Below are positions 3,660 to 28,703 of a DNA stretch of 29,436 nucleotides, piece after piece. Position numbers and translations under genes: made by a program. The notes beneath the pieces were generated by a model. It worked only from the letters and a program-made list of their open reading frames with translations, made no database searches and was not told the DNA's origin. Positions within the stretch are counted from its first letter, which is position 1, and each line of letters opens with the position of its first letter. Source of the DNA: a virus; the IMG/VR virus record IMGVR_UViG_3300033273_000370, positions 1-29,436 of that record. The stretch is one strand, 5' to 3'.

Positions 3660-3681
3660 TTATCCACTAGTTTCCTAACTG

Positions 3682-4243: not shown

Positions 4244-4457
4244 TGATTAACTCCTTTAATAATGACTTAATGTCATTGATGTCCTCCTTAATACTAGCAA
4301 CTTCACTCTCAATGGATTGTATCTTCTGATTCTTTTCACTTTTAGCCTTTCGACTAGCAACATAATGATCATAAGATGCTTTGTTCACATTAATAATGTT
4401 ATTGGTTAAAGGATCCCTTGCGAGATCCTTATGTCCTTTTTGTGTGTAAGTTTCCAT
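4230..4457 (-). CDS. Small coiled-coil protein of unknown function
   Basis: A 75-aa protein. The first half (METYTQKGHKDLARDPLTNN) is polar and resembles short N-terminal segments of small T4-like virion proteins. The second half, about residues 40-73, has a heptad-like pattern (IQSIESEVASIKEDINDIKS) predicted to form a coiled coil. The start lies one base beyond the TAA stop of the DUF4815 gene, with no clear Shine-Dalgarno sequence, so translation may depend on readthrough of ribosomes from that giant gene. Its place after the DUF4815 gene and before the neck genes suggests a structural or assembly role. In T4 the coiled-coil whisker protein wac lies in this region, but there is no sequence basis for equating the two. 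Confidence 0.7.
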   Translation of the reverse strand: METYTQKGHKDLARDPLTNNIINVNKASYDHYVASRKAKSEKNQKIQSIESEVASIKEDINDIKSLLKELINGSK

Positions 4458-4458
4458 A

Positions 4459-12129: not shown

Positions 12130-13683
12130 TTAGAACTGCAAGATAACTTTTATGTCTTCTTTTTGGTTTGACGATCTTGTAATCGAAGGTCTATTATCTA
12201 CGTATATAATATTACCAGAATGCTGTTTTACCTCTGGGGATGCAACACCTGTAGTGAAATCCATTCCAAGATAATATGTACGATTATTTATCGTCGTTTT
12301 GTTATCGTTAAATGTACTGTCAATACTCAGAGTTAATCCTGTAGATGGGGTGATCGCCAATGATCCATTTCCAGTTGGACTTCCAGTAAAATCTCTTAGG
12401 GTATATCCATAAGTTGGGTTAGTAATTCCTATTCCAGCAGTGGAGAATCCAGCAACTGTTCTATCTTGCCAAAGCTTTAGAACTCCAGTATTTTGATCAT
12501 AATTTACAACTCTACCAACTGCTGTAGCACCAGTTCCAACTGTTTGAGTAACAACTGAATCTGCGGTAAAAGTTGCTTCACTATACCCAACTCCAGTTAA
12601 TTTTAAAGCAGTGACCGCACTTGCCTTATCTGCTGTTAAAACAGAACCTCCAGTTGGAGAAAGTGGATTTTCAACAATACCGATTCTTGCAAACTGATTT
12701 CCCGCAATAAAATCAGGATTTTCGTTGTCACTTTCAATTCTTGAATACATCAATACGCTATATGCACCAAGTTCTCTATAAATGTCTGCTCCATGCCCAC
12801 CTTGCGGCGTTATAATAACATCAAAAGTTGGTCTAGTTGTTCCTGCTGGAATTCCAGCAGCTTCAAAATCAAGAGTTCCAAATGTATATCCAGAACCTTG
12901 AGCAGATACAGAAACGTCACTAATTTTAGAGTCTCCATCAATAGTAACAGTGCATTGTGCCCCTGTACCGTCTCCATTAATAGGAACTCCAGTGTATGTC
13001 TGATTTGCTGCTCCTAAATCAGCGCCACGATTAGTTATCGTAACAATTTTAATCGAACCATCTACAGCATTATCTCTAACTAAAGCCGTATCATTACTAG
13101 TTCTCCAGTCTGTGGGAACTGGCATGAAATCTGTAGAGTCAAATTTAATGATGTCTGATGGTTTAATAGTGTAAAGATATTTCCAGATATAACCATCACC
13201 GCTAGTTCCAGCTGCTTTTGGTTCTAAATCGGTAAAAGTTGGTTCATCAAGAGACGGTCTACCAAGAGTATTTTCGGGATTTGTTCCATTCTGCAAGCAA
13301 ATATAAACTCTGTAATCACTATTCAATACATAGAAGTTAGAATTATATAAATTGGTAGAACCAGAGACTGGTGCAGTATTTGAACGACTGTAATCATGGC
13401 GATACATGTCATAAGTCGTTCCAGAAGACCAAATTCTTTTTGGAACTACTTGCCTAACATCAGTAGAATTGATTCTTTTCAAAGCGATCATTGTGTTCCA
13501 ATAATCATTTTCCTCATCAAAATTATCTTTTGGTGCAGGAGGAGTTGTATTCCATGTAGAGGAATAATCTGTCGGATTTGGAAGTCCGACAAACGAATAA
13601 TAAGAATTGCTAGCATTAGCAATTCCCGCAACAAAATTCTTTGCGTTTAATATTCTTACCTGATCAGTTATAATGGCAGCCAT
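12130..13683 (-). CDS. 8: gp8-like baseplate wedge protein with repeat insertion
   Basis: T4 gp8 is a wedge component that binds gp7, gp6 and gp10 at the outer baseplate. Seen here: the C terminus contains HSGNIIYVDNRP against HSGEMIYMENRP in T4, ending EDIKVILQF against EEINILFTF. The middle has GDGYIWKYLYTIKPSD against GDGYVWEYLFEIPPD, and the N-terminal half has VVPKRIWSSGTTYD against VIPRRDWGDTRY. Length is 517 aa against 334 in T4. Two insertions account for this: residues about 212-295, with ITNRGADL and SAQGSGYTFG units, and about 380-420, with a GTGATAVGRVVNYDQNTGVLKL module. The gene lies directly after the gp7-like giant, as in T4, behind an AATAAATA motif in a 36-nt gap. Confidence 0.93.
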   Translation of the reverse strand: MAAIITDQVRILNAKNFVAGIANASNSYYSFVGLPNPTDYSSTWNTTPPAPKDNFDEENDYWNTMIALKRINSTDVRQVVPKRIWSSGTTYDMYRHDYSRSNTAPVSGSTNLYNSNFYVLNSDYRVYICLQNGTNPENTLGRPSLDEPTFTDLEPKAAGTSGDGYIWKYLYTIKPSDIIKFDSTDFMPVPTDWRTSNDTALVRDNAVDGSIKIVTITNRGADLGAANQTYTGVPINGDGTGAQCTVTIDGDSKISDVSVSAQGSGYTFGTLDFEAAGIPAGTTRPTFDVIITPQGGHGADIYRELGAYSVLMYSRIESDNENPDFIAGNQFARIGIVENPLSPTGGSVLTADKASAVTALKLTGVGYSEATFTADSVVTQTVGTGATAVGRVVNYDQNTGVLKLWQDRTVAGFSTAGIGITNPTYGYTLRDFTGSPTGNGSLAITPSTGLTLSIDSTFNDNKTTINNRTYYLGMDFTTGVASPEVKQHSGNIIYVDNRPSITRSSNQKEDIKVILQF

Positions 13684-13719: not shown

Positions 13720-16700
13720 TCATGTGAAATTTTTGAACCTAATATATCTGGTTCTATAAACTTTCGATGAAGTTGATATACCAGTTAATCCGTTTGTTCC
13801 TATTCCAGACAAAGTATGCGCTGGATATGTAATTTCTTTGTTTCTAGCATCTAGAATAATCTTACCCCAGGAGTATTCTCCAAGGAATGATCCTGTTGAG
13901 AATCCAGAAACTCCATAAGGATTAATGTCTGTATTCACAGTTACTTTAGTTACATAAGTACTAACTCCAGAGATAACTTGAGTTTCAAGTTCCATTTTAT
14001 TGACGACATATACATTATCAAGAAACTCAGATCCAACTCCAACAACTGTAGAGTTGTCAGTTCCAAGAGCATTTATACTTGTTGATGCTGTTCCTAAACT
14101 CGAATTTCTTACAATAAAGTAATCTCCTGTAGATATTCCACTTAAAGTTACTGCAGATCCAACCAAATTAGTATTTCTCATATCAGAATCGAGAGGAATA
14201 TGAAGATGGAACATCAATCCCGTTGCTCCAACACCAATAGAAGTTGTTCCAAGTCCAACAATTATTCCAGAATCTCCAGAGTATCCAGAATTTTGAATAA
14301 CATTGCAGGATTCTGTTTGTCTTGCTGGAGGACCAATTAAAACCAAAGGTGGATTCGTAGATGTATATCCAGATCCAGGATTAGTAATAGTAATTCCAGT
14401 AACAACTCCGTTAGTAATTGTTGCGGCCGCAGTTGCGGTTGTAGATCCTATACCAACACTTACGTCTGGAGTTGTTGAATAACCAACTCCACCATTATTA
14501 ATAGTGATTGAAGCAATGGTTCCAGCAGCAGAAACTACAGCAGTCGCGGCCGCTCCAGTAACAACTATTGGATTTACTAACGTTACTCCCTTTTGAATAG
14601 TATTCCTAAAGGTAGAATCTACATTTTCATTATTAAGATTAAATAGAGGTCTCACCCTATCAACATAGATTACAGTAGAACCAATACCAACTGAACTAAT
14701 GATATTGGCAACTGGATTAATGACAGGTTCATAAATTTCCCTATCTTTACCAACTTCTTGTCCATTGATGATCTTATCCTGAGTCTGTCTGCACCAGGTT
14801 ATTGGTCTTTCGAAAGTAGTATCAGTAGTGTTTCCTGGTCCAAAATATGGGAGAGTGTCGCACTTATCAACATTTGTGACAGTGCTTATTGTCCTAGTAT
14901 TTTCTTGTTGATATGGTTTTTGTCCAAGATCTGGATTATAATTTAAAGTGACCTCATCTCCATATTTGATAGTTTCAATAACTTCTCTGTCAATAACATC
15001 AAGATCGTCTCCACTTCCCTTATAGAAGCAAATGTTGAGAGTATCTCCAACCTTCAATGCTTCCGAGAAGGTTATTTGAGAACCTCCATTAAATTCATAA
15101 GAATCACCTGGACGTTGAAGTATCTCATTTACGAATACTAAAAGTAACTGATCAAGTTCAATTTTTGATCCTTTTGATTTATTAATGGATATTGGAACAC
15201 CTGCTTTAATTAATGGGAAATCAACTCTAGATCCATCAATATACGAACTAACGTCATCAAACGTTTCAATAACACCCAAAGACCACCCAGTGAATTCATC
15301 ATGAATAACTTTTTCAATTTGAATTTCAAATATATTTGTAGAAGAGAACGAAGAGGTGGTAGGAATTCCAGTTGTTCCTCCAACAGCAACTGTTAATCTA
15401 TCTTCATTACTATAACCATATCCAGTATTTTTGATTTCAAAATCAATGACGCTAGACCCTTGACCAACAACAACATCAATTCTAGCTGCCGTCCCTAATC
15501 CTGTTGTCGCTGAAACATATTCTAAAGGTAAATTGGTATATGAAAGTGGAGAATCGATTACAACGAAAGGTGGATTTGTAGAGGTATATCCGCTTCCGGG
15601 ATTAGTAATAGTGACTCCAGTAATGTGACCACCACTAATCGAAGCAGTTCCAATAGCAACTATGTTAGTTGAAGAAAGACTTGTAGTTCCAACACTAACA
15701 TTTACTGTAGTTTGAATTCCAGATCTGTAACCAGATCCACTATTTCCAATCGAGATTGCTGAAATAGTTCCAGCAGCAGAAACAGTTGCAGTTCCGCCTG
15801 CAGCAACTAAAGGTTGATATCCAAATCCTGCTGTAGATCCAACAGAAACAATCATTCCTCCTCTTGGGAAAGTAGAAACTCCAACATCTTGAGACATTGA
15901 CTCTACGAAAGCAGATTGAGTTGTTCTACCTGTACCAACAAAAGAAATTGAAGTTATGCCAGTGTTTTCTGATAAAGTGAAATTGTTTCCTCCACCAGTA
16001 ATTTGGAATATATCATTAATTAATACAATTGCACCTTCATTATTAATTCCAGTAATATCACTTCCATCAGATTTTAAAGTAAATTCATTTTGAATTCCAT
16101 TGAATTGATCTGAAATATCATCAAAGATATAATTTTTGTAATAAGTCTCATTAGTAGTGTTTGGTTGAGCTGTTCTAAGAAAACTTCTTCCCTGGAAACT
16201 AGAACTAGTTGTTATTCCAACATAATCTCTTTGATCTGGGGGATTTGTTATAGTTCCAATAGGGGTGTTTCCATATGGTGCTTCAACAAAATTCAAAGTA
16301 TTACCAACAATATTGTAATTTCCAACAACTTTTGTTACCAAATCTCCAGTTGAAAGACCAGTTTGAATATTTGTTCCCATCCACCCTCTGCGAACTGAAA
16401 GTCTATTGGTACTTCCAATACCAACGCCTTCAATTTTCATTATTTCATTGCCAACTTTAAGTAAGTCTCCGCCAAAGATAGAATTTATGTTAGTCAGATC
16501 GATAGTATTATCTGTGCTTACTACTTCATCATCTAATGTTGTTGTAGTTGCAGTAGAAACGATAGGAGACTGAATAAGATTATCAATAGCGACTAATACT
16601 TTTTGATTCTTATTCGTCGCAGTAAACGTATGGGCAGATCCAACACCACCAGAACCAATTGAAGTTATGTCAAGAACTTCCGGAACAGACTTCAAAGACG

Positions 16701-19700
16701 CTTCTGCACTTCTAGCAAGTTTAATAGTATTATCATTAACCTTGATTGCAAACACTCCAGTTGAAGGGAGTAAATCTGTTGTAACTCCCGTAGCAGTGAA
16801 TGTAGTCTGAGCAATGCCAATTGATTGCGTAATGCCAATACCTGGACAAGCATATTCAATTTGTTCGCCAGTTACGTAGAAATGGTTTGGAATCGTAATA
16901 CTGTTAGAAGATGTATTAATACCACTTCCAACAAAAGTTCTTTCAAAAATATTGTCATTTTTATGAGTCAAATTAAATGATCTTTTGATATCTCTGTCAG
17001 TTCCTGTATATTCACCATATCCAGTTTCTATCGTTCCATTATTAAAACTAATAACATCTTTTGTATCATCCTCGATTCTAAGAGCGTTAGTATACACATG
17101 AACTGTGGCATCAATTCCCGATATGGGCGTAAAGAGAACTTGAGTGGTTGCAGCAAGTCCAACCGAATCGACAATTACTCTAGATCCAAAAGTACCAAGT
17201 CCTGAATGAGTTTGAATATTTGCAAATTCAGTATCAAATGTTTCGGAAGAAGATTCTCCTTCAATATGATCATCAACAACAAAATATTCTAAAAATTCAT
17301 AACGATTATTTGTAGTATCATGAACTTGAATCATGAAATATCCTGCATCATATCTGTCTTGGGCAATAGATACGTGGCTTGGATATTCCGCAATAATATT
17401 TTCCGTTGGAGAACCAGATGACGCTATATTTGTAGTTGTTGACTGTAATCTAGCATGTTTCATATCCAAGGTTGAAATGCCAGAAGATACTGAAGATAAT
17501 CCAACAACCATAGTATTAACTACAGCAGTTGTTCCTATCCCTACAGAAGGGTTAAAATCAACTTTAATGTTTGATCCATCAAGATACGCAGTATATGTTC
17601 CAAATCCAGTTGCACTAATTCCTCCAGGAGAAGTAGTTAATTTGCCATACTCAAGAATAGAAACATCAGTTCCATCATGAACAATGTTTAATTCCTGTGC
17701 TTCAAATTCATTTGTATTGAATGTCGCAGTACTTCCAAAAGATGGATTACTAACGTCTGGAGTTATTTCGACGAGAACCTTCAAAGAGTGATATGTATCT
17801 CCAATACTAACAATGGTTGCAGAGGAACTAGAGTTAACAATAGCACTGTCTGAGTCAATTAATACTCCTCCTATAGAAGTAGATCCTGTACTGAGATAAT
17901 TATCATTCAAATTATAAGAAATTGCTGTAATATCATAATCATTTACAGACGAATTAGTTGGGAAGAACAACAATTGACCTTCTGTGCCAGATATTGAAAA
18001 ATCAAAAGAACCTTGATCATATGTAGTTTCCAATCTTGCGTATTGATTAATATATCCAAAAGATCCATCATGGATAAGATCTACAATCAATCCTTGTCTT
18101 TCTTGAGTAAATCTCTTATCCTTTAAGTAAGTAAAATATTTTCTAAATCTAAAATCATCAAGACTGAAAGTATTAAGTATACTAAAAGCAGTTGCTCTAG
18201 GATTACTGTTAAATTGTGAACTTATGTCATCAATGGAAAGAACTCTATTTCCAAATGACTCAGCATAATCAGTTAAAATCTTATTATTGAGAATAATTTC
18301 ATCAGAGAGAATTGTACCATCTGGAAGATTTAAATTGTTTTCTGTGGCAATATCAAAATCGAATACGCAATTTGTGTCCATTACACCGTACAGATCACTT
18401 ACAATAGTAACATCAGTCAATTCTGTAGAAACACCAACTCTTAATGGTTGATCTAAATTGGTCGATTCGACTTGAAGGTCGCTAAATTTTCTATATCCAA
18501 GTGTATGATTTACAGAAGATACTGCATCTTTCCAAGTATCAAATGGAACTGTACTTCTTAAGGAATAAGAGAAATTCTGATAGTAGAAATTATCTTGTAA
18601 TCTTTGCAGGTTATCATTTAAATAACCAGATCCAGTTTGATTGCCGCTGAATATTTGGGAAGAAACGTCAGTTTCAAAATAAGACTCATATGATGTTACT
18701 TTTGAGGCAACTCCAGAAAGTTCTGAAGTAAGTCCTTTTATAACTTCTCCAGAAGCAAAATCATCAGAAGAAAGAACTCTAAGAGTTTTTGTTGTCCTAT
18801 CCCAACTTTGAACAATACCTTCTTTTCCATTAGTTGTAACTTTTTCTCCATCAAGATAGTCTCCTGTGGATAGTTCTACTGAAAAAGTTGGAAAATGTTT
18901 TTGTGCTATTATTTGCCCAGATGAGTTAATTGGGTCAAACACTCCTGGAATTTCTCCCCCATTCAATTCATTGCTTAAATTATATGCAACAGAACCAATT
19001 CCTCCAATGTTAGGAGTTACCGCATTAAGAGTGAATAATTTATATCCATAGTCTTTTGAATTATAACCCTTGATGGTAGTACCAACACCAACAGTGCTAA
19101 TATTCTCAATCATCACCTGATCACCAACTTCAAATGGGAATGAAGTACTAAACCCAATTGACATGGTTACAGTCACATCTTTAGTAACCGTATTAAATCC
19201 AACTGTACTGATTCCAACTCCGTTTGTATTTTTTATTGGCAATATTGTTGGAGTAGAATTATTAATTCCTCTAGTATTGCTTAAAATAGTTACAGAAGAA
19301 TCTCCTAATGAGTATTCCGCCGAAATATCAGTAATTTGAAGTCCAGTTTTACCATCAAAGAAAAGTAATTCTGGTGCCGAAGAGTATCCTCTTCCTCCAG
19401 AAACTATATCAATATTTTCAATTTTAGCAAAAGAATCTACATTAATAATTTGTGGAAGAGATGCACTTGGTTTTAGTGTTTTATCCGTTGGGAAGTCATA
19501 TCCAATGTCGTTGACTTTTATTTTTTCGATAACTCCAATGTCTTCACTGACAGATACTAAATCTCCTCCTACCCCTTCAATTGAATTGATAGATGTGATT
19601 GAGGGTAATGTAGTGTAGTTCTTACCAGAACTAGTAACTTCTACCGCAGATATTGAACCACTTGCATGAGTACAATCAGTTGTGTAAGTTATACTAGAAG

Positions 19701-22700
19701 AGGTTGATACGTATGAATTTGCTTCAGGAATATCAGATAGTTCAAATGTAAAGAAGTTAGTTTCAGCAACAGAAATTCTTCTATTTCCGTTGTAAACACT
19801 ATTCTGCGAAATTATAGAATTATGATTTGAAATTTCAGAATCAGTTATTATTTCTGATTTTTCTACGGGAAGATTCGTATCAGAAACTACATCGAATGAA
19901 TAGTATAATCTTTCTGGTGTAGTATTGCCAATAGAGACTGTTACGCTGGATGAAGATGTTCCGGCAGAGCCTACTCTAGAGACACTAAAAGTTGAAGATG
20001 ATTGATCTGTTTCCCAACGATTAGTATATTTGTCATCCAGATAGAAATTAAGTTTAAATGCAGAATATTGAGTATTCTGTTGAACAAATCCTAAAGAAGA
20101 ATCTGAAATGTCAAAATTTATTGTAGAACTTCTGTAAGCTTTGATAAGAGGATTAATAAGTCCAAATTCACCAAACGATGTACTTGCAATACCAACAACG
20201 CTTGGTATTAAACTTGTCGAATCGTAATAAGTATTGGATAATTTAATATTATTATCATCAACTTTTACAATGTAATAAATTTTATCATTTTCTAATCCTT
20301 CACAAGGAGTAGTTGAAGAATGAATTACTTTATCTCCACTTTCATATCCATGATTGGATATACTAATAGTATTAGTAGAAGTGTTAACACCTACAGCACT
20401 AAAAGTTTCTATACCAACCAACATGCGTCGATTAGTATCATTATACTTTACAACATATGTTGTTGCAAATGATGGATTAACATCAATATTAACAAAATGT
20501 CCCTCTCGGAGACCATGATTTACATCAGTCGTTACGGTAACAGTTCTTTTTACTGCATCTCCAGTAATATTAGAATAGTTTGTTGTAAAACTATGATTAT
20601 TGCCAGAACCAATTCCAGTGAAGAATAAAGTTTTAGAAGTGTTACCTACACCAACAAAACCACCAGTAGATCCAAGTCCAACTCTTTGAGTTGCAATACC
20701 AATCAAATCATTTGAAATCTTAGCAACAAAAACTTCTTGTCCGTCAGTTAATGTTTTAGCAACTCCAATATCATGATGTTCGTTATAAACAATACCTTCT
20801 CCTTCATTTGAAGAATATGTTAATACATCGCCTGTCTCTAATCTATGATTTTTTATATAAAGCGATTTAATAGGAACTGCAAGAGTACTAGAACCAAAAG
20901 TTGTTCCGATTCCAACCGTATTTAATCCAAAGGAACTAAATTGCAGTACAGATCCGATTCCAACAGCAGTAGTACCAAGACCTACAGTTTCTGATGGTTC
21001 AAAATATATTTCTCTGTTTTTCTTAAAATTATATCTTGTTTTGAATCCAGAATTTATCGTAAATCTCCTTGGATCTTCAGATAAAACAGATCCAATAGTA
21101 TGAATCGCACCAACAGTACCATTTACTGCTCGTAAAACTCTAAATCTAGAATTTGTTCTGTCTACATTTAAAACTTTTACTTTTTCTGTTCCTATGCCTA
21201 AAATATCATTTGGTACAATGTTCGATTCAATCAAACTTGATGATACATTGAAAAAAGTTACTAGTCCAGTAATATTTGTATTTCCAACAGCAACTCCTGT
21301 AGTTCCCAATCCAACTATTTTAAATCTTTCACTTGAAACACCAATCGAATACGAACCCTCAATTTTTGATGATGTTGTAGAAATACCACTAATGATAACA
21401 ATGTCCAGTAATTTAAGGTTATGAGGAGACGCTGATTGTACAATATATGACCCTTTTTTACTTGAAGGGATTAATTCAACATTAGATATTTGAGTTGTGG
21501 TGGCATTTAAACTAGCAACAGATTTACCATTTATTCTGGAAATTCTTCCAGCTGCTCCAAATCCAGTTGATTCTCCATCAGAAAAGTTTAATGTGTCTCC
21601 AACTTTATAATTATCTCCAGGACTTTTTACTTCTACTTTTGAAACTTTTCCTCTATTTGTAGATGTAATTTCTCCAGTTTGAGATAAGTTATTTGGGGAA
21701 TATATGTAAGGATAGTTAACATCATTTTCTCTCAAATTATAAGAGATTGTATTTCTACACCAATTGTTTGATTCGATATCATAATCATCCTGATTTGAAG
21801 TCTTTTTAAAGTTAAACTCGTTTGGAGTAGACTTATACTTGTCTCCTATAACATATGGGAATACTGGTCGTTTGTAATTTTCAAATAATCCAGAAGATTC
21901 TATACCAAAAGGATCAATCGTAGTAAAATAAGCATAAGTTCCATTTGGATATTCTGGTGTTACGCAAAATCTTCCATTATTTCTATCAAGATAAGAATCG
22001 TCATCATTTTCATAATAAGTAAAATCTTCTACAAAAAATCCTAGTGGAAAAATTGTTACTGGCGGTCCATCTGCACGGGATGTGTTAAGTCTGTAACTAG
22101 ACTTCATTAATGTAACTAATCCACCATCATTGTTGGAGTATCCATATGGACCATAGATTGGATTTCCATCATATGCCCAACCAATAATTGGAGAGTGATC
22201 TGTAAATACTGTTTCTTGAGAATTTACTATTTTTAAATCTGGTTTTCCATATAAAATCTCTCCCCCTTCTGAAACTGAATAGACCATTTCTCTTAATGGT
22301 CTCGGTGCATACAATGAGTAACATTGTAAACCGTACTTGTCGCTCAGTGACTTTTGTAAAATAATATCATCAGATCCTATTGCATTATTAACATATGATT
22401 TTTCAAATAAGTTTACTCTCCACTTTTGTATCTCTGGAATAAAGGAAAAATCTTCTTCTGATGTAACAACTTCAATAGACACTTCTCCAGAAATATATCC
22501 TGATCCTGGTTCTATAACCTTTACTTCGCGAAGACTTCCATTTACGAAAATTGGAGTTAAAACACACCCTACTCCAGAAGTAGATATTATTTCTAAGTCT
22601 GGAGTGGATGTATAATTGGATCCAACATTTTCTACAATAACTTCTATGATCCTACCATCAGCAGAAACAATGGGTTTGACCTGGGCGTTTCTGCCAGAAA

Positions 22701-25700
22701 TTACAGAGACCTCTGGTAATTTATTAAAATTAATAATCTCTTTAGTTCCATATCCAGATCCTTTATCAGATAAATGTACTGATGTTAGTTCTCCTCTAAA
22801 AATAGGTTGAACTTCTGCTTTATATGCACTCGATTCAATTCCTGGGACAGTTGCTATGCCAACAGGACCCTCTACAACAACAGATATTGGAGGATAATTG
22901 AAAGTTTGAGTTCCCGAACCAGAATTAGTTAAATCAATATATTGTTTTGTTCTATAAAAGAAAGTTTTGTCAGTAGTTAAACCAACTTCAGATAATTTAA
23001 ATGCGTCACTGTCAATTACCGTAACATAGTAATTAGTTCCATCACTTAATCCACCAATTGCGATTGTTCCAGCAGAATACTTTAATATCTCTCCAGATTT
23101 ATAATCATGATTCTCTATGGTAATAGTATCGGATGATGTGTTAATACCAGTAGAAACAACTGTTCTCTTTTTAGTTTCATACCCAGTTCCATTGTCAACA
23201 ATGTTTATCGAATCAATTATAGACTTTTTCGATACACACTCTAAAGTATGTTTTCCAATACCGTAAGAAGATAAAACAACTGTATTAATACCAACAATTG
23301 CTTGCTCTAAAGTGTTATGTAATTTAATTGTAGTTGCATCAACAACTTCTGCAAAATATGTTGAATTGGTTGACAGACCACCAACTATCTGTTGAGAATT
23401 TGGTTTATATACTACCTGTTCCCCATTTCTAAATTTATGATAAGTGGAGAACCCAATAGTAGAAGTAGTACCTAGGGAAACTTTATTAGACTGTGAATCA
23501 GAGAAAAATTCTACAGAATGAGAGATTAGTTTTGTATTTACTGACGCTCTAGCATTAATTCCATTTCCACCTGTTATCGAAACAGTAGGAGTTTCTGTAA
23601 AATCAAATCCTCTATTAATTAATTGTATTTCTCTTAAATTTCCACTGATCGCAAGAAATCCAGTTGCTCCAGTTCCAACAGGATCCGATATATTTAATAC
23701 TGGTGGATTAATCACATCAAATCCGTTTCCTGGAGATGTTACTTCAATTTTTTCTATTCGTCCAGTATGAACTATATCTTTTGATTTGTAATTTAAAATT
23801 TCAACACCATTAATTAATATTCCAGTAGCTCCTGGTGTTGTTTCTGACTTTACTTCATTATCAATCGGTGTTGCAATTTCTCTATAAAGTTTTTGAGAGT
23901 CTATATTTTTACCTCTTGTTTCCAGTAATTCTATAGTATTAGAAGTAACTGTAGTTGTTGACTTTACGGTTACGAAATTTGATGTATATAAGTTAGATAA
24001 AGATTTTGCTAGTTTTAAATTATTATTATCTACTCTAAAGACATAATATACTCCTTCGCCACCAGTATCTCCTCCAAATAAAGATGAAGTAACAGAACGA
24101 CTAGTTACAGATGCTCCATCGAGAGTGACAGTCGTTGTGCTTATCTGTGGAGTGTAATATACAGACTCTCCACTGTAAAATCCATGATTGTTTATATTTA
24201 ATGTTTCACCAAAAAATGTACCACTAAAGGTTTTTAGTGATTTTGCTGCAATAATTGGTACATCTTTAAATGAGGGTAAAGAGTTTGATGCAACTAGAAT
24301 TGAATTGCTATATTGTTTTTTATAGACATTTTGAACGTTTGCATGAAATTTATTAATACTAGGAAAAGTCGAAGATGTAACTTTTCTCAATTTTTTCAAT
24401 AACGAATAACTTGCTGTTAAATTAAGAGTACCAGAAGTTTTAAGTTTTATTGTTACAACTTTATCTGTAATAATATCAAGAACTTCTGCATCAAAAGAGT
24501 CTACTCCAGTCAAAGAAGTTATGGTTACAGAATCTCCAAGAGATAAGTAATTTTCTTTGTTTAAAGTTAACTTATAAGTTTTTGGTGAAACAGTACTAAT
24601 TAATTCAATTTTACTAATTGAATACTTAGCCGGATTGTTATATAACCAGTTTTTAAATTTAAATGAACTATCTTCAATACCGAGAGTTTTTATATTAAAT
24701 TTATCCCCCGATTTATAGTCAAATATACCATTTTGTTTTGAAAAACCAGATAGAACAGGCGTAAGACGAACTTCAATGGGATTGACATTATCATCTGGTT
24801 TTATTGAAGCAAAATCTTCCGTACTTAAAGTGTCACCGTCAATCAAAGTATCTGTAATATTGCTACAACCTAAAAATTGTGTTATTGTTTTAGATGTATA
24901 AGAAACAATACCTGTTGTATTTGTAGTTGAATTTGGATATTTTACATAAATCTCTCCAGAATTTGGAAATCCGATTGTTGAATCAACGTCAATAAAACTA
25001 GAACCTGCAGAAACATTTGCAATAATATGAGTTTTTGGTGCAACTTTAAAAGTGCCGACAGTTGATCCTAAAGATCTAGAATCTCTGTTATATCCATTAT
25101 CATAGGAAAGTTTATAATAAGTTTTTCCAGTTCCAGCATTTACTTTTTCAATATCATATATTGCAGTATATGTTTCATCATTATCCCCTTGAAATATAGT
25201 TTTACTCTCTAATTCTGAAGGATTGCCGGTAATTGATTCTACTAAAAAATTAGAAGTTACTAAATTGTTAGCATTTGAAGGTGTAAGTAGATAATCTCTT
25301 GGTTTTGTTATCTCAGCATTTACACCATAGAGAGCTTTAAATAAAATTTTGTAGGACTCATCGGTTCCTTTAGATGAGTAAAAGTCTTTTGCCTGCTTTA
25401 TGAAGACATTTTGATTTACATTTGATGATAAAGGTCTATCAGATAATCCAGGCAAAAACTGAATTTTAGTTTTATTTAAAAATTGTTTTAAGAAAAGGCA
25501 ACTTAAATTTTCTACTTTTGTTCCATCAGAGTGATCGGAAGCTGAAGTAGAATCAAAGACAAGATCCCCTTGTTTGGAATCTGATTTATATGATGTTACT
25601 CCAACAAATCCTCTAACACATCCAGTAAAAGAAGACGTAGTTTTTCCAGTATAGGTTATTACTTCATCCCCTATTTTCAGCAGACCATAAGAATCTGGGA

Positions 25701-25968
25701 AATTATTTGTTCCACCTGCGATTACATTTATTGTCGTTGCAAATTCATCAACATCGCCGTTCAGAGCAGTTTCATGGTTTAAATTAGTCTGTTCGTCAAC
25801 CTTTATGTACTGGTCAATATTTTGTATTAAATCAACAGGACCGCTTTTATATTCCTGACCAAGATAATACTGTTTTAAAAATTCAGAGATAAGAGGGAAC
25901 TCATTCTCAACATAAGTTGGGAGTTGATTCTTAACGATGCTGCTAAATTTGATTCTTGTTTCTGCCAT
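13720..25968 (-). CDS. Giant gp7-slot baseplate protein (4082 aa) with YHYH-type domain and many repeat modules
   Basis: T4 gp7 (1032 aa) starts wedge assembly by binding gp10 and gp8. This 4082-aa protein sits in the same slot, between gp6 and gp8. Near residues 193-212 it has FYSSKGTDESYKILFKALY, closely matching FYSTKGIEASYKFLFKVLY near the C terminus of T4 gp7. Here the match is near the N terminus, so the rest of the protein extends beyond that point. A YHYH-family segment lies near 1213-1347 (WAYDGNPIYGPYGY, then NGRFCVTPEYPNGTYAYF). Most of the remainder is repeat modules: about fifteen GxGY units, about eight NHGY...SGD units and several IGDE...RG units. Two segments (about 3287-3337 and 3603-3628) have the VFVNEILQRPGDSYEF type of phage fibre module also seen in T4 gp10. 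The frame is uninterrupted over 12.2 kb. Baseplate role is inferred from slot and motif; the full-length identity with gp7 is unproven. Confidence 0.85.
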   Translation of the reverse strand: MAETRIKFSSIVKNQLPTYVENEFPLISEFLKQYYLGQEYKSGPVDLIQNIDQYIKVDEQTNLNHETALNGDVDEFATTINVIAGGTNNFPDSYGLLKIGDEVITYTGKTTSSFTGCVRGFVGVTSYKSDSKQGDLVFDSTSASDHSDGTKVENLSCLFLKQFLNKTKIQFLPGLSDRPLSSNVNQNVFIKQAKDFYSSKGTDESYKILFKALYGVNAEITKPRDYLLTPSNANNLVTSNFLVESITGNPSELESKTIFQGDNDETYTAIYDIEKVNAGTGKTYYKLSYDNGYNRDSRSLGSTVGTFKVAPKTHIIANVSAGSSFIDVDSTIGFPNSGEIYVKYPNSTTNTTGIVSYTSKTITQFLGCSNITDTLIDGDTLSTEDFASIKPDDNVNPIEVRLTPVLSGFSKQNGIFDYKSGDKFNIKTLGIEDSSFKFKNWLYNNPAKYSISKIELISTVSPKTYKLTLNKENYLSLGDSVTITSLTGVDSFDAEVLDIITDKVVTIKLKTSGTLNLTASYSLLKKLRKVTSSTFPSINKFHANVQNVYKKQYSNSILVASNSLPSFKDVPIIAAKSLKTFSGTFFGETLNINNHGFYSGESVYYTPQISTTTVTLDGASVTSRSVTSSLFGGDTGGEGVYYVFRVDNNNLKLAKSLSNLYTSNFVTVKSTTTVTSNTIELLETRGKNIDSQKLYREIATPIDNEVKSETTPGATGILINGVEILNYKSKDIVHTGRIEKIEVTSPGNGFDVINPPVLNISDPVGTGATGFLAISGNLREIQLINRGFDFTETPTVSITGGNGINARASVNTKLISHSVEFFSDSQSNKVSLGTTSTIGFSTYHKFRNGEQVVYKPNSQQIVGGLSTNSTYFAEVVDATTIKLHNTLEQAIVGINTVVLSSYGIGKHTLECVSKKSIIDSINIVDNGTGYETKKRTVVSTGINTSSDTITIENHDYKSGEILKYSAGTIAIGGLSDGTNYYVTVIDSDAFKLSEVGLTTDKTFFYRTKQYIDLTNSGSGTQTFNYPPISVVVEGPVGIATVPGIESSAYKAEVQPIFRGELTSVHLSDKGSGYGTKEIINFNKLPEVSVISGRNAQVKPIVSADGRIIEVIVENVGSNYTSTPDLEIISTSGVGCVLTPIFVNGSLREVKVIEPGSGYISGEVSIEVVTSEEDFSFIPEIQKWRVNLFEKSYVNNAIGSDDIILQKSLSDKYGLQCYSLYAPRPLREMVYSVSEGGEILYGKPDLKIVNSQETVFTDHSPIIGWAYDGNPIYGPYGYSNNDGGLVTLMKSSYRLNTSRADGPPVTIFPLGFFVEDFTYYENDDDSYLDRNNGRFCVTPEYPNGTYAYFTTIDPFGIESSGLFENYKRPVFPYVIGDKYKSTPNEFNFKKTSNQDDYDIESNNWCRNTISYNLRENDVNYPYIYSPNNLSQTGEITSTNRGKVSKVEVKSPGDNYKVGDTLNFSDGESTGFGAAGRISRINGKSVASLNATTTQISNVELIPSSKKGSYIVQSASPHNLKLLDIVIISGISTTSSKIEGSYSIGVSSERFKIVGLGTTGVAVGNTNITGLVTFFNVSSSLIESNIVPNDILGIGTEKVKVLNVDRTNSRFRVLRAVNGTVGAIHTIGSVLSEDPRRFTINSGFKTRYNFKKNREIYFEPSETVGLGTTAVGIGSVLQFSSFGLNTVGIGTTFGSSTLAVPIKSLYIKNHRLETGDVLTYSSNEGEGIVYNEHHDIGVAKTLTDGQEVFVAKISNDLIGIATQRVGLGSTGGFVGVGNTSKTLFFTGIGSGNNHSFTTNYSNITGDAVKRTVTVTTDVNHGLREGHFVNIDVNPSFATTYVVKYNDTNRRMLVGIETFSAVGVNTSTNTISISNHGYESGDKVIHSSTTPCEGLENDKIYYIVKVDDNNIKLSNTYYDSTSLIPSVVGIASTSFGEFGLINPLIKAYRSSTINFDISDSSLGFVQQNTQYSAFKLNFYLDDKYTNRWETDQSSSTFSVSRVGSAGTSSSSVTVSIGNTTPERLYYSFDVVSDTNLPVEKSEIITDSEISNHNSIISQNSVYNGNRRISVAETNFFTFELSDIPEANSYVSTSSSITYTTDCTHASGSISAVEVTSSGKNYTTLPSITSINSIEGVGGDLVSVSEDIGVIEKIKVNDIGYDFPTDKTLKPSASLPQIINVDSFAKIENIDIVSGGRGYSSAPELLFFDGKTGLQITDISAEYSLGDSSVTILSNTRGINNSTPTILPIKNTNGVGISTVGFNTVTKDVTVTMSIGFSTSFPFEVGDQVMIENISTVGVGTTIKGYNSKDYGYKLFTLNAVTPNIGGIGSVAYNLSNELNGGEIPGVFDPINSSGQIIAQKHFPTFSVELSTGDYLDGEKVTTNGKEGIVQSWDRTTKTLRVLSSDDFASGEVIKGLTSELSGVASKVTSYESYFETDVSSQIFSGNQTGSGYLNDNLQRLQDNFYYQNFSYSLRSTVPFDTWKDAVSSVNHTLGYRKFSDLQVESTNLDQPLRVGVSTELTDVTIVSDLYGVMDTNCVFDFDIATENNLNLPDGTILSDEIILNNKILTDYAESFGNRVLSIDDISSQFNSNPRATAFSILNTFSLDDFRFRKYFTYLKDKRFTQERQGLIVDLIHDGSFGYINQYARLETTYDQGSFDFSISGTEGQLLFFPTNSSVNDYDITAISYNLNDNYLSTGSTSIGGVLIDSDSAIVNSSSSATIVSIGDTYHSLKVLVEITPDVSNPSFGSTATFNTNEFEAQELNIVHDGTDVSILEYGKLTTSPGGISATGFGTYTAYLDGSNIKVDFNPSVGIGTTAVVNTMVVGLSSVSSGISTLDMKHARLQSTTTNIASSGSPTENIIAEYPSHVSIAQDRYDAGYFMIQVHDTTNNRYEFLEYFVVDDHIEGESSSETFDTEFANIQTHSGLGTFGSRVIVDSVGLAATTQVLFTPISGIDATVHVYTNALRIEDDTKDVISFNNGTIETGYGEYTGTDRDIKRSFNLTHKNDNIFERTFVGSGINTSSNSITIPNHFYVTGEQIEYACPGIGITQSIGIAQTTFTATGVTTDLLPSTGVFAIKVNDNTIKLARSAEASLKSVPEVLDITSIGSGGVGSAHTFTATNKNQKVLVAIDNLIQSPIVSTATTTTLDDEVVSTDNTIDLTNINSIFGGDLLKVGNEIMKIEGVGIGSTNRLSVRRGWMGTNIQTGLSTGDLVTKVVGNYNIVGNTLNFVEAPYGNTPIGTITNPPDQRDYVGITTSSSFQGRSFLRTAQPNTTNETYYKNYIFDDISDQFNGIQNEFTLKSDGSDITGINNEGAIVLINDIFQITGGGNNFTLSENTGITSISFVGTGRTTQSAFVESMSQDVGVSTFPRGGMIVSVGSTAGFGYQPLVAAGGTATVSAAGTISAISIGNSGSGYRSGIQTTVNVSVGTTSLSSTNIVAIGTASISGGHITGVTITNPGSGYTSTNPPFVVIDSPLSYTNLPLEYVSATTGLGTAARIDVVVGQGSSVIDFEIKNTGYGYSNEDRLTVAVGGTTGIPTTSSFSSTNIFEIQIEKVIHDEFTGWSLGVIETFDDVSSYIDGSRVDFPLIKAGVPISINKSKGSKIELDQLLLVFVNEILQRPGDSYEFNGGSQITFSEALKVGDTLNICFYKGSGDDLDVIDREVIETIKYGDEVTLNYNPDLGQKPYQQENTRTISTVTNVDKCDTLPYFGPGNTTDTTFERPITWCRQTQDKIINGQEVGKDREIYEPVINPVANIISSVGIGSTVIYVDRVRPLFNLNNENVDSTFRNTIQKGVTLVNPIVVTGAAATAVVSAAGTIASITINNGGVGYSTTPDVSVGIGSTTATAAATITNGVVTGITITNPGSGYTSTNPPLVLIGPPARQTESCNVIQNSGYSGDSGIIVGLGTTSIGVGATGLMFHLHIPLDSDMRNTNLVGSAVTLSGISTGDYFIVRNSSLGTASTSINALGTDNSTVVGVGSEFLDNVYVVNKMELETQVISGVSTYVTKVTVNTDINPYGVSGFSTGSFLGEYSWGKIILDARNKEITYPAHTLSGIGTNGLTGISTSSKVYRTRYIRFKNFT
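14341..14400 (-). repeat. Diverged direct DNA repeat, copy A (ITNPGSGY unit)
   Basis: Sixty bases that match 15562-15621 in the same orientation with nine mismatches by eye. Both encode ITNPGSGYTSTNPP followed by a Val/Leu-rich strand. Six to seven of the differences leave the protein unchanged or nearly so, so the DNA repeat is older than its protein copy is diverged. Confidence 0.7.
15562..15621 (-). repeat. Diverged direct DNA repeat, copy B (ITNPGSGY unit)
   Basis: Partner of 14341-14400, about 1.2 kb away and in the same reading frame of the 4082-aa protein. The pair indicates intragenic duplication of one repeat unit near the C-terminal end of that protein. Confidence 0.7.
16620..16915 (-). 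repeat. NHGY-type module, distal copy in the giant protein
   Basis: Encodes a unit with NSITIPNHFYVTGEQIEY, a spacer, FAIKVNDNTIKLARSAEASL and a closing SAHTFTA. The same order of elements (NH, SGD or TGE, YYV, D-N-TIKLA, GxHTF) occurs around 20210-20375, 22900-23130, 23240-23470 and 23960-24210 in the same gene. This copy is separated from the others by more than 3 kb. Confidence 0.6.
20210..24210 (-). repeat. Region of recurring NHGYxSGDxVxY modules in the giant protein
   Basis: Seven recognisable or degenerate copies of one protein module lie in this 4-kb stretch. Good copies read NNHGFYSGESVYY, IENHDYKSGEILKY, KNHRLETGDVLTY and SNHGYESGDKVIH, each followed by a tyrosine-rich YYV strand and a D-N-x-KL segment. 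Copies at about 21315-21440 and 20405-20535 are degenerate. The YHYH-type segment lies between two groups of copies. At DNA level the copies have diverged, so this is a protein repeat rather than a simple DNA repeat. Confidence 0.65.
21930..22330 (-). other. YHYH-family segment inside the giant protein
   Basis: Encodes residues about 1213-1347. It contains DHSPIIGWAYDGNPIYGPYG, which follows the usual core of YHYH-family proteins (S-P-hydrophobic-G-x-A-x-DG-x-PIYGP), then LDRNNGRFCVTPEYPNGTYA. The tetrapeptide that names the family is not present upstream of the core. The function of the family is not established to my knowledge. Confidence 0.72.
25290..25400 (-). other. gp7-like signature segment of the giant protein
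   Basis: Encodes FYSSKGTDESYKILFKALY and the following YGVNAEITKPRDYLL. The equivalent T4 gp7 segment reads FYSTKGIEASYKFLFKVLY followed by NEEVEIEI. Twelve or more of nineteen positions agree by eye. This is the strongest evidence that the giant gene is the gene 7 counterpart. Confidence 0.7.
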
Positions 25969-25986: not shown

Positions 25987-28035
25987 TTAGTAACCGCCGC
26001 CGGATGAACCGCCAGAGGTTCCTGAAGTTGTATTAGCAAAAGAACTATTAGTAGAAGTAGTTGTATTTGCTGTGGTGTTTGCTGTAGTAATTACAGCATT
26101 TTCCGGACCACCAACACGAACTAAATTACCTTCTGCATAAGAAGAAGAAACAATATAATTTGATGCTGATGGATCAAGTCCTGATGCGATTTCGTCTGAT
26201 ACCATTTCAAACGTACTGTTACTAGTATCTAGTTGCAAATAAAGGTCCTGTAATCCAACAACATCATTTGATAAAGGTGTTGCTTGAATTTCTATGGTCT
26301 GTTGTCCGTCTTTTTCCATTCCTGCAATAATATTAATTGCATTAATGGTTATAATACCATTTACATAATCAATAGTACCAACATTAGAACGTATGATTGT
26401 TGGACTTTGAGAACCTACATTGGGTACGGTGAAGAAAAACAGAGTTCCAGTTTGTCTATTTGTATTTGGAATATCACTAAGATAAACATTTTCAGAAATT
26501 CCAACAACTCTAAACGCACTGGATTTTATGTTATAACCATTTATGCTGAAAATATGAAACTGATTACCAAATCCAATTTGATATTCAGCAATCGTGTTTG
26601 GTACAATTCTCAAATCTCTTCTCATCTTCACAACAGTAATGTTTGATGTTACTGCTTCATGACTATCATCAATCACTTTCAAAAACTTACTGTATTTGAA
26701 ACGAGCACCATACTTATTTAATTCAGTAGAACTAGCATACTTAGATGCATTATTAGAAACTACCGTAGAAACATCAGCTGCTGATGGTGCTAGATTGGTA
26801 TTATAATAAACTTTTGAACTTACCTCAAGATAAAGATACTTAAGATCCAAGATTTCAGGAACAACTCCTGCTACTGCGTATTTTTTTAATTTTAGTTTGA
26901 TATTATCTTTAATCAAATTTGGAAGAAAATCTCCAAATCTAGGTTTAATGCTGATAAAAACCTTTCCATATTGAGGAGGAATTAATTCCTCTCCACCAAA
27001 TACAGAAATAGACTCCGTATCTGGGTATATTTTTGCGGGAATCAGTGTTTCATAATCATCTGCAGTTACTGCACGGTTTTGAGTTGAGTAAATCTTTGGG
27101 GCATATTTTCTAACAGACTCAACTTCTTCAATTGCAGATCCTCCTCTAGAACTATACTCTGGTGTTAAAAGTGATATACCAGAGGTAACTGTATATTCAT
27201 TTCCATCTCTTACATAAGTTAATCTACCATTGAAAGCAAATTGTGAGAATCCATTTCCAGAATCCCCATTAGTGACCAAATAAGTGACTGTAATATAATT
27301 TTGATCGTCTAGTTTTTTACCAAAAACTCCATCACCAAAGAATATTTCATATCTTTCGTCTGCAACTTCTTGTAAAAAGTAGATTTTTGAGTCACTTCCA
27401 GCATAGAATAAGTTATCTTGCAAAGAGTATTTTACAGTTGCAGTTGAAGATGCATTATTTTTAACACCAACTCTGATTAAATCCGTATCAACTCCAGGAT
27501 TTGGTAAAATAAACTTTTGTTGAGGATTTCTAGCACTGTAAGTAAAGTTTTTTTCTACAACCGTCCCCTCATAGATTGGTATTTCATTAAAAGCAGCAAT
27601 TCCATTGACTACAGGAACGGTTATATCATCTAAAATACAGAAAGACCCACTAGAACCACCAAAGGTGCCTCTAGACGCTGCTACAGTCCCTTTACGGAGG
27701 GTTATAGACGCTGGTTTGGGTGTTATGTTAGATGTATCTACAATGAATGATATTGCAGATGTTGCTGCTTTTCTTGATCTGGGAGTATATCCAATATTTC
27801 TTGCTAACGCAACTACGTTTTCTCTTAAAGTTGCCGTATCAATAAAAACTTCGTTTGCTACCATATTAGCATTATACGAAGTAATGTACGTATTGTATGC
27901 TAATAAATCTAAAATCGTCGATAGGTTGGAACCTTCGAAGTCATAGTCCGTAAAATTGGAATTTGACTTTAGGTATTCTTTGAGAGTAGTTTTAACGTCC
28001 TCAAAGTCTAAATTTGTAAAATTTACTAGTGACAT
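25987..28035 (-). CDS. 6: gp6-like baseplate wedge protein
   Basis: T4 gp6 dimers form the inner iron-ring of the baseplate that links the six wedges around the hub. Seen here: the start region FTNLDFEDVKTTLKEYLKSN, then FEGSNLSTILDLLAYNTYI and NANMVANEVFIDTATLRENV, is the conserved N-terminal signature of gp6 and related baseplate J-like proteins. Length is 682 aa against 660 in T4. The last ~40 residues are a Thr/Asn/Ser/Gly-rich tail ending SGGSSGGGY, which is low complexity and probably disordered. The ATG lies one base after the gp25 stop, and an AAGG within the end of gp25 serves as its Shine-Dalgarno sequence. No repeat modules of the GxGY type are present, unlike the neighbouring gp8 and gp7-like proteins. 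Confidence 0.95.
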   Translation of the reverse strand: MSLVNFTNLDFEDVKTTLKEYLKSNSNFTDYDFEGSNLSTILDLLAYNTYITSYNANMVANEVFIDTATLRENVVALARNIGYTPRSRKAATSAISFIVDTSNITPKPASITLRKGTVAASRGTFGGSSGSFCILDDITVPVVNGIAAFNEIPIYEGTVVEKNFTYSARNPQQKFILPNPGVDTDLIRVGVKNNASSTATVKYSLQDNLFYAGSDSKIYFLQEVADERYEIFFGDGVFGKKLDDQNYITVTYLVTNGDSGNGFSQFAFNGRLTYVRDGNEYTVTSGISLLTPEYSSRGGSAIEEVESVRKYAPKIYSTQNRAVTADDYETLIPAKIYPDTESISVFGGEELIPPQYGKVFISIKPRFGDFLPNLIKDNIKLKLKKYAVAGVVPEILDLKYLYLEVSSKVYYNTNLAPSAADVSTVVSNNASKYASSTELNKYGARFKYSKFLKVIDDSHEAVTSNITVVKMRRDLRIVPNTIAEYQIGFGNQFHIFSINGYNIKSSAFRVVGISENVYLSDIPNTNRQTGTLFFFTVPNVGSQSPTIIRSNVGTIDYVNGIITINAINIIAGMEKDGQQTIEIQATPLSNDVVGLQDLYLQLDTSNSTFEMVSDEIASGLDPSASNYIVSSSYAEGNLVRVGGPENAVITTANTTANTTTSTNSSFANTTSGTSGGSSGGGY

Positions 28036-28036: not shown

Positions 28037-28438
28037 TTACCTTGTTGGTTGCAATACGAATTCTAATTGTTGTGTAGGAATATCAGCTCCAATAATATCA
28101 TATACAATAACGACATCAAATGAATTACCATCTATATCAGCAAATGCATCAACAGATTTTAAATTAACTCTTGGTTCATACCTTTTAATTGATTCTTCAA
28201 TCTGAGTTTGAATTTCAATAGCAGTTAAATCATCAGCATTTTCAAAAAGAGATTCAGTAATGCGTGATCCAAATCTTGGATTAAAAAATTTCTCCCCAGG
28301 ATTTGTAAAAACAATGTTTTTTACTGATCTTGCGATTGCATTTTCATTTTTCATTGCAATCAAATCTTTTGTCAGAGGATTAGTCTGAAAAGACATGCTA
28401 ATATCTTTAAATCCTTGACTTATCCTTTCTAAAGGCAC
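28037..28438 (-). CDS. 25: gp25-like baseplate wedge protein (GTG start)
   Basis: gp25 completes the wedge next to gp6 and gp53, and belongs to the gp25/GpW baseplate family shared with contractile injection systems. Seen here: FNPRFGSRITESLFENADD matches FDPEFGCDLSDQLFENMTP in T4, followed by IEESIKRYEPRVNLKSVDA against IESAVRNYEPRIDKLAVNV. Length is 133 aa against 132 in T4. The start is GTG at 28438-28436. It is chosen because the MPLERISQGFKDISMSF beginning is conserved in cyanophage gp25 proteins as I recall them. The next in-frame ATG, 13 codons later, would remove that segment. No clear Shine-Dalgarno sequence precedes the GTG, but AATAAATA stands 21 nt upstream. Confidence 0.95.
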   Translation of the reverse strand: MPLERISQGFKDISMSFQTNPLTKDLIAMKNENAIARSVKNIVFTNPGEKFFNPRFGSRITESLFENADDLTAIEIQTQIEESIKRYEPRVNLKSVDAFADIDGNSFDVVIVYDIIGADIPTQQLEFVLQPTR

Positions 28439-28695: not shown

Positions 28696-28703
28696 TATTT
28701 ATT
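28696..28703 (-). promoter_or_regulatory. Late promoter before the 66-aa gene (AATAAATA)
   Basis: The minus strand reads AATAAATA, 16 nt before the ATG of the 66-aa gene. The TAA in the middle of the octamer is the stop codon of the preceding gene. A Shine-Dalgarno sequence (AGAGGA) lies between the motif and the start. Confidence 0.62.

Follow-up and report, generated by a model that had tools for sequence, protein, structure and literature searches.

A giant gp7-family protein in a viral baseplate operon: a small three-block wedge frame with apparent large insertions

Introduction

T4-like cyanophages abound in the sea, and T4 has served as the main model for interpreting their baseplates. 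In the T4 baseplate wedge, the gp7 subunit joins two gp6-type chains. T4 gp7 is reported to be a monomer of 119 kDa that is present in six copies (PMC3004832). A far smaller counterpart is XM1 gp17, a 242-residue protein reported as the T4 gp7 orthologue, which packs with two gp6-type chains into a core bundle and binds tail spikes via flexible parts (PMC10457771). For cyano- and pelagimyophages, by contrast, one report states that T4 Gp7 is absent and apparently substituted by VrlC in both phage groups (PMC7029224).

Here we describe a gene of 12.2 kb that lies between gp6 and gp8 in a 29,436-base stretch of viral DNA (IMG/VR virus record IMGVR_UViG_3300033273_000370, positions 1–29,436; hereafter the window, which by itself constituted the analysed record). 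Its product of 4082 residues had been proposed, from the sequence alone, to be a gp7 whose T4-like core was moved to the front and extended behind (hereafter the original prediction). Our results suggest that the giant protein is very probably the kyanovirus form of gp7, the third baseplate-wedge subunit, and that its insertions would build an outer baseplate.

Results

The giant gene occupies the gp7 place of a wedge operon

A single ATG-initiated open reading frame (ORF) of 4082 codons fills positions 13720–25968 on the minus strand, which also carries the gp6, gp25, gp8, and VrlC-type genes, and encodes a protein of ~440 kDa. It matched phrog_2885 (baseplate wedge subunit; kyanovirus gp7) with 3685.8 bits, residues 1–3428 aligning to profile positions 5–3355 of 4179, that is, over most of the profile length. 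The flanking genes encode gp6, the expected wedge partner (25987–28035; phrog_219, E = 7e-190), preceded by gp25, a sheath initiator/wedge protein (28037–28438; phrog_261, E = 3e-53), and, on the other side, gp8 (12130–13683; phrog_438, E = 7e-167). These matches bear out the placing of the gene exactly between gp6 and gp8 in the original prediction, which had also correctly described one open frame of 12.2 kb; the frame is, however, to be read on the minus strand. Read along the coding strand, the gene products are a 180-residue protein, gp25, gp6, the giant gp7, gp8, and a VrlC-type protein of 2554 residues encoded by a separate gene (4459–12123; phrog_358); a 128-residue protein, gp13, gp14 (1075–2814), and gp15 (22–1038) follow downstream. 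The giant gene therefore has the place expected of a gp7-type subunit, adjoining gp6 within the wedge operon and ahead of gp8. The order gp25–gp6–X–gp8–VrlC was shared by the window, HTVC008M, phiM19 (with an HNH gene interposed between gp25 and gp6), S-SM2, S-CREM2, and the locus of a minimal homologue, L278.

We also noted that the 180-residue protein (28699–29241) is named ferredoxin by PHROGs, while S-SM2 and S-BM3 label the gene in the same place ferredoxin/purM and PurM, respectively; the public names thus disagree.

A tblastn search with residues 1–300 matched 502 phage records at E ≤ 0.001. Synechococcus phages made up the majority, and among the 60 matches listed most carried a gp7, baseplate wedge initiator, or baseplate wedge subunit annotation. 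The gp7 proteins of the Synechococcus phages Bellamy and S-SM2 (Kyanoviridae) have the same gene place and are collinear with the window protein from end to end, at 50.4% and 44.3% identity, respectively; they differ from it only in sequence, as far as was seen. That of the Prochlorococcus phage P-SSM2 (Kyanoviridae), also in the same gene place, is 1113 residues longer, mostly after the third conserved block (C2, see below). Among relatives, the gene that follows gp6 ranged from 291 to 7312 codons. Small products were found in Marzo (503 residues), Melnitz-1 (896), phiM19 (1007), HTVC008M (1016), and S-CREM2 (1937), mid-size ones in S-BM3 (3849), Bellamy (4067), the window (4082), and S-SM2 (4156), and the largest in P-SSM2 (5195), Syn9 (6076), S-SZBM1 (6619), and P-SSM4 (7312); the sizes for Syn9, P-SSM4, and S-BM3 were taken from annotated coordinates. 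Given this range, from 503 to 7312 residues in these phages, the window protein is exceeded in length by several relatives and does not stand out. Giants of the gp7 type are already annotated in many marine cyanobacterial phages, and the window protein is ordinary for the group.

Three collinear blocks link the giant protein to T4 gp7

The near-N-terminal segment FYSSKGTDESYKILFKALY (residues 196–214), which the original prediction had matched to T4 gp7, indeed aligned to T4 gp7 residues 734–752, within a longer alignment of residues 188–221 to T4 726–759. When residues 1–300 were compared with 177,635 distinct PDB sequences, two gp7 sequences were the sole matches at E ≤ 1 (E = 0.014 and 0.02); unlike this query, the full-length protein gave no match at E ≤ 1 in a phmmer search of the PDB. 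A profile of the N terminus (98 rows, left from 165 candidate N-termini after a 92% identity filter) recovered the same two gp7 sequences at E = 3.1e-5 and 2.6e-4, again with no other match at E ≤ 1. We then used an alignment of the conserved frame, in which 83 rows were reduced to 70 by a 90% filter, L292 was removed for an N-terminal part that could not be aligned, and the addition of two window rows brought the total to 71, with no T4 row among them. Against the PDB, this profile matched T4 gp7 with E = 4.1e-13 for the whole sequence and a second gp7 with E = 9.9e-11, the next match being at 0.64. Frame positions 9–120 corresponded to T4 gp7 646–760 (independent E-value (iE) 3.1e-10), and 136–166 to 858–891. 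In a profile-profile comparison of the kind that the original prediction had proposed as a check, hhalign aligned the frame profile to 18 T4-type gp7 sequences over T4 645–894 with E = 1.9e-13, and to the single sequence of T4 gp7 with E = 1.2e-8. Single sequences of T4 gp53, gp5, gp6, gp8, gp9, gp10, and gp11 scored no better than 0.036, and the reversed profile 0.12.

A further anchor, window residues 2456–2502 (YQxFSY ... H..G), was found by BLAST and by profiles of compact homologues; the original prediction had overlooked it. It is present in HTVC008M, Melnitz-1, phiM19, and Marzo, and weakly in T4-type gp7 (T4 862–890). We therefore distinguish three blocks, N1, N2, and C2, for which hidden Markov models (HMMs) were built without window rows and run on 34 proteins; the E-values below refer to that small set. 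All three blocks were listed, in the order N1, N2, C2, in 33 of the 34 proteins, with N1 at 0.02 or better in 31. The window protein scored 7e-6, 3e-16, and 2e-13 for N1, N2, and C2, and T4 gp7 scored 0.005, 9e-11, and 4e-4. By comparison, the best values among 204 shuffled or reversed decoys were 0.13 (N1), 0.057 (N2), and 0.013 (C2), and the best among the other nine window proteins was 1.4. Most of the 34 rows, or near copies of them, had trained the HMMs; outside the training set were the window, its close relative L095, Bellamy, S-SM2, P-SSM2, Syn9, P-SSM4, S-CREM2, Melnitz-1, T4, V05, Aeh1, and, for C2 only, L292, as well as S-SZBM1, which was examined in addition to the 34. In the 6619-residue protein of S-SZBM1, the blocks lie in order at 11–57, 675–740, and 3536–3579. 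Thus, the blocks are shared collinearly with T4 gp7, C2 and N1 being weak in T4 when taken alone. N1 by itself gave E = 0.69 against T4 with a first, smaller profile and 0.85 with window N1 in hhalign, and neither value was counted as evidence on its own. Judged from these sequence comparisons, the homology of the giant protein to T4 gp7 is real.

Two internal insertions and a C-terminal addition account for the size

On the same kind of evidence, the giant protein is a three-block frame enlarged at three places, by ~100 and ~2220 residues at two internal sites and by ~1580 at the C terminus. Block N1, the predicted first core helices, spans residues 9–59 (25792–25944; HMM match 9–35, iE 7e-6); its end is uncertain, as the stretch to residue 59 was drawn from the hhalign match at 0.85 and predicted helices. 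The block HMMs then delimit insert site A (residues 60–160; 25489–25791), with ~100 residues and one M3 module (see below). Block N2, which contains FYSSKGTDESYKILFKALY, follows at residues 161–231 (25276–25488; HMM iE 3e-16; hhalign for 179–231, E = 2.1e-10), and after it insert site B, ~2220 residues long (232–2455; 18604–25275). Block C2, with its YQxFSY ... HPaG anchor, lies at residues 2456–2502 (18463–18603; HMM iE 2e-13; hhalign for 2455–2502, E = 8.5e-6), and the C-terminal addition C, again delimited by the block HMMs, takes up the remaining ~1580 residues (2503–4082; 13723–18462).

The frame can be seen almost bare in minimal homologues of 291 (L278), 295 (L282), and 314 residues (L286), which came from a scan with Marzo-type proteins. 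Here, the blocks are almost contiguous, with a gap of 19 residues between N2 and C2, and the conserved frame amounts to ~190 residues. Measured by HMM limits, the additions at A, B, and C are 1, 19, and 94 residues in L278; 2, 263, and 59 in Marzo; 120, 526, and 197 in HTVC008M; 0, 806, and 14 in phiM19; 0, 1334, and 13 in L289; 145, 1642, and 17 in S-CREM2; 125, 2224, and 1580 in the window; 116, 2237, and 2667 in P-SSM2; 616, 2725, and at least 2258 in Syn9; and 610, 2816, and at least 2172 in P-SSM4. The last two C values are lower bounds, since Syn9 was read over 5763 of 6076 residues and P-SSM4 over 5766 of 7312. Because the HMM match to N1 is partial (9–35), site A of the window is nearer 100 than 125 residues. 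Site A is therefore close to empty in some lineages (0–2 residues in phiM19-like, Marzo-like, and minimal homologues) and reaches ~610 residues in Syn9 and P-SSM4. The proteins of HTVC008M and of the Stenotrophomonas phage Marzo, both encoded directly after gp6, have the same three blocks around a site B several times smaller than that of the window.

T4 gp7 (1032 residues), which has the same gene place and the same block order, has additions of 38, 105, and 141 residues by these limits, plus 646 residues in front of N1; Pfam domain V of T4 (766–861) accordingly falls in site B. The window protein, by contrast, has almost nothing in front and its bulk at the three later sites. The scale of addition beyond T4 gp7 that was originally predicted is supported. 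The useful result is the three-block frame together with the series of insert sizes.

The insertions contain modules that recur in other virion genes

A YHYH domain (PF14240, E = 9.7e-24) lies inside insert B at residues 1257–1352 (21913–22200). Three further module types were delineated by iterative HMMs at a threshold of iE < 0.01; as the training set included the window's own proteins, copies there match partly by construction. M1 (GSGY type) has 12 copies in the giant protein: five of them in residues 734–1173 (22450–23769), two in 3399–3494 (15487–15774), and two in 3815–3897 (14278–14526) among others; gp14 has four, gp8 two partial ones, and the VrlC-type protein one weak copy. M2 (NHGY type) has six copies in the giant protein, at residues 589–678 (23935–24204), 837–907 (23248–23460), 948–1021 (22906–23127), 1702–1792 (20593–20865), 1867–1934 (20167–20370), and 3023–3107 (16648–16902), and a marginal match in the 128-residue protein. 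M3 (GDEVIxYT type) has three, at residues 76–136 (25561–25743), 325–380 (24829–24996), and 3149–3210 (16339–16524), with one more at the C terminus of gp15, one in the VrlC-type protein, and a marginal partial match in gp14. The recurrence of M1 and M3 in gp15, gp14, VrlC, and gp8 indicates that several virion genes share a stock of domains. The repeat modules and the YHYH-type segment of the original prediction were therefore recovered. Its fibre-like modules were not: at E ≤ 0.1, the Pfam matches were limited to YHYH and a weak one to Baseplate_wedge, and the names of the seven PHROGs that were hit include no fibre.

Two stand-alone genes of S-SZBM1, located between the giant gene and gp8 (L295, 11634–13232 and 8260–10107), carry related material. 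The first encodes 532 residues, with a stretch 47% identical to window residues 1258–1375 (the YHYH region), and the second encodes 615 residues with M1 and M3 modules; insert modules thus occur both inside and beside the giant. Lastly, the 'tail tube B' of Pelagibacter phage Skadi-2 (L013, 3444–5675) was 38% identical to window residues 69–169 (E = 5e-7), and on this sequence match to the M3 region the M3 module may cross tail types.

The giant ORF is under purifying selection and two relatives are reported from virions

Against seven relatives on viral contigs (3371–3911 codons; 73–95% amino-acid identity), the ratio of nonsynonymous to synonymous substitutions (dN/dS) of the giant ORF was 0.146–0.183. 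The ORF is under purifying selection and its open frame is not due to chance, in agreement with the selection read from the long stop-free frame in the original prediction. In 13 windows of 300 residues covering residues 1–3900, pN/pS was 0.12–0.28 against L095 and 0.12–0.31 against L097; a hypervariable stretch, sought as a receptor tip, was found in none of these windows with either relative. Relatives are numerous: in one scan of viral contigs, at least 566 of 599 candidate stretches encoded one, and 80 were kept. We also noted gp7 ORFs that end early, at 1564 codons in L021/L125 (the same contig, 1831–6522), 2633 in L129 (2405–10303), and 2921 in L089 (5661–14423); these may be real shorter forms, frameshifts, or assembly errors.

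Detection of a relative in virions, another check named in the original prediction, was found in print twice. S-SZBM1_208, a 'baseplate wedge initiator' of 6619 residues and 724 kDa, is listed with 71 peptides and 13.5% coverage (PMC9146016), and S-CREM2 ORF122 (1937 residues) with 91 unique peptides (PMC10665884). In our block search, N2 and C2 were clear and N1 was weak in S-CREM2 ORF122.

Structure predictions and observations that weigh against the assignment

The original prediction had also named a superposition of the N terminus on T4 gp7 as a check. Residues 1–580 of the window protein were modelled with AlphaFold2 from the 98-row alignment, and the model was searched with Foldseek and VIA. 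The matches listed were to a small beta-barrel at 441–528, to the M3 module, and to other proteins. Residues 64–157 (the region of M3 copy 1) resembled 9in6_M of phage VP1 (Z 11.1, root-mean-square deviation (rmsd) 1.6, 75 residues), and residues 63–204 a phage GP4 chain (Z 11.1, rmsd 5.2, 101 residues). The barrel (24385–24648) was similar to the N-terminal barrel of the V-type ATPase B subunit and to helicase barrels (Z ~9–10). The 291-residue homologue L278 gave a model with a mean predicted local distance difference test score (pLDDT) of 61, residues 1–110 ranging between 71 and 93 by tens. Out of 350,542 chains, Foldseek matched 12 to it at E ≤ 10. The two best, 9f4a_A0 and 5iv5_BJ, are taken to be gp7 from their lengths (1031 and 1004 residues) and aligned ranges, and ranks 3, 4, 5, and 8 came from the contractile-tail baseplates of a Streptomyces injection system, phage P1, diffocin, and a type VI system. 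In VIA, L278 residues 59–186 superposed on 5iv5_BJ 702–894 (Z 4.8, rmsd 3.3, 87 residues). The fold result for L278 agrees with the sequence result, and would not carry it alone.

Several observations weigh against assigning the giant protein to gp7. On the structural side, the window model was of low confidence in its helical core (mean pLDDT 69, predicted TM score 0.36), and T4 gp7 was absent among the matches listed for it by Foldseek and VIA (50 each), an absence that we do not in itself take as evidence against gp7; the two top Foldseek matches of L278 were weak (E = 0.031 and 0.05), and none of 47 chains reached Z ≥ 5 in VIA. On the sequence side, C2 alone reached an iE of only 14 in T4 gp7 and 0.85 in the second gp7 in the PDB profile search, and its five-row profile aligned to three T4-type gp7 sequences in hhalign at E = 4e-4 with a probability of 35% (controls no better than 0.043). 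N1 was weak in T4 (0.005), Aeh1 (0.02), and S-CREM2 (0.04), and not significant in V05 (iE 8). Second-best matches within the 34 proteins went down to 0.027 for N1 and 0.077 for C2, and a 488-residue protein (L292, 105–1568) has the C2 anchor without a credible N1 or N2. The Pfam domains PF21428, PF21427, and PF21456, all present in T4 gp7, found no match in residues 1–300 at E ≤ 1 or in the full protein at E ≤ 0.1; the window protein is therefore not filed in the T4-type gp7 subfamily (Straboviridae). PF23786 (Baseplate_wedge) scored 27.9 bits with the residues 1–300 query and 20.7 bits with the full protein, around a gathering cut-off of 27, the best stretch covering profile positions 179–221 of 284. 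On the side of the locus, three further genes separate the gp7-slot gene from gp8 in S-SZBM1 and Melnitz-1, and in S-SZBM1 one of these, S-SZBM1_205 (615 residues), is also printed as 'baseplate wedge initiator' (PMC9146016). Finally, the contact with gp6 and the place of the inserts are what we infer by analogy.

We rejected the 615-residue protein of S-SZBM1 as a second gp7, as it has none of the three blocks and carries M1 and M3 instead. N1, N2, and C2 were not found in seven neighbour genes of S-SZBM1 (best iE 19). The shared name is thus probably owed to shared modules.

Discussion

The giant protein is real, conserved, and under selection; it belongs to an annotated family, to which this contig adds a member but not a new kind of protein. 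The collinear blocks bear directly on how it relates to T4 gp7. Relocation of a T4-like core from the C-terminal part to the front, with all else appended behind, would account for the motif lying at residue 196 in the window and at 734 in T4. Nevertheless, the block order is identical in both, the third block lying at 2456–2502 in the window and at ~862–890 in T4, and minimal homologues begin with N1, so that an N-terminal part of ~640 residues specific to T4 explains the offset; relocation, as originally predicted, is scarcely credible. A second alternative, that cyano- and pelagimyophages have no gp7 and use VrlC in its stead, the giant being an unrelated structural protein with a shared short motif, has the printed statement of gp7 loss in its favour (PMC7029224), as well as the single 32-residue BLAST match at E ≤ 0.001 between the full-length window protein and T4. 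Against this, the frame profile found gp7 only (E = 4e-13), through collinear blocks; in HTVC008M, S-SM2, and phiM19, VrlC is encoded separately, after gp8, and each of these phages also has a gene in the gp7 slot; and the window itself has both genes. The window VrlC-type protein is 57% identical to the product of the Bellamy gene after gp8 (2373 Bellamy residues compared), and the gene at this place is named VrlC in S-SM2 and HTVC008M. VrlC is likewise a giant protein of the baseplate region, encoded in the same operon and having M1 and M3 modules in common with the giant gp7, but belongs to another family (phrog_358) with a DUF4815 protein (9euf) as its PDB relative. With both genes present and the blocks shared, the statement that gp7 is absent and replaced by VrlC is contradicted, and we regard this alternative as very improbable. 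As to the VrlC relative, residues 1713–1881 of the VrlC-type protein matched residues 787–951 of the 9euf chain, a DUF4815 protein called ORF65, with a sequence E-value of 4.4e-38.

The remaining alternatives accept a gp7 and concern what the chain does. Its size alone might suggest that it is processed into several smaller proteins that act in the virion, and peptide detection does not prove an intact chain; S-SZBM1, however, is reported with one 6619-residue entry and its 71 peptides (PMC9146016), and selection is even along residues 1–3900, making cleavage quite improbable. The insertions might instead be mainly receptor-binding surfaces, with YHYH and the repeats as adhesins, rather than scaffolding. 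The presence of a YHYH domain speaks for this, as does the XM1 counterpart holding tail spikes through flexible parts (PMC10457771); by analogy, both suggest that the insertions contribute to receptor binding, either as the binding parts or by holding them. The lack of a hypervariable stretch in the 13 windows against L095 and L097, and the end-to-end alignment with Bellamy and S-SM2, speak against it. The pattern of conservation along the chain is more in keeping with scaffolding than with a receptor tip that changes fast, and we consider a mainly receptor-binding role unlikely.

We therefore favour a giant gp7 in which the frame would join two gp6 chains into a wedge, with one copy per wedge and six per tail as in T4. 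The insertions would emerge from the frame as arms, at two loops and at the C terminus, and make up the outer baseplate, where they may hold fibres or spikes, as the flexible parts of XM1 gp17 do. Like the proposed frame, XM1 gp17 is a small third wedge subunit, without a giant insert, although the two are likened by description only. Six copies per tail would amount to ~2.6 MDa for the giant protein, versus ~0.7 MDa for T4 gp7.

More broadly, there is perhaps an even chance that gp7 is a wedge frame into which each lineage plugs its own outer baseplate by insertion into one gene. The three blocks would stay constant, and two loops and the ends would take up anything from hardly any residues to thousands; additions would be N-terminal in T4, and in kyanoviruses would sit in the inner loops and at the C terminus, with modules that are also seen in gp8, gp14, gp15, VrlC, and stand-alone genes of S-SZBM1. 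A search of literature titles and abstract openings, a scope outside which most subscription journals and bioRxiv preprints lie, found no description of this split-frame build.

If gp7 is such a frame, the kyanovirus baseplate would have several megadaltons of single-chain arms instead of separate peripheral proteins. The division into ~190 wedge-subunit residues and ~3900 added ones shows which part of the chain is to be expected on gp6 and which in the outer layer, as yet unseen. It also sets right the published claim of gp7 absence, and opens the role of the insertions to testing by deletion.

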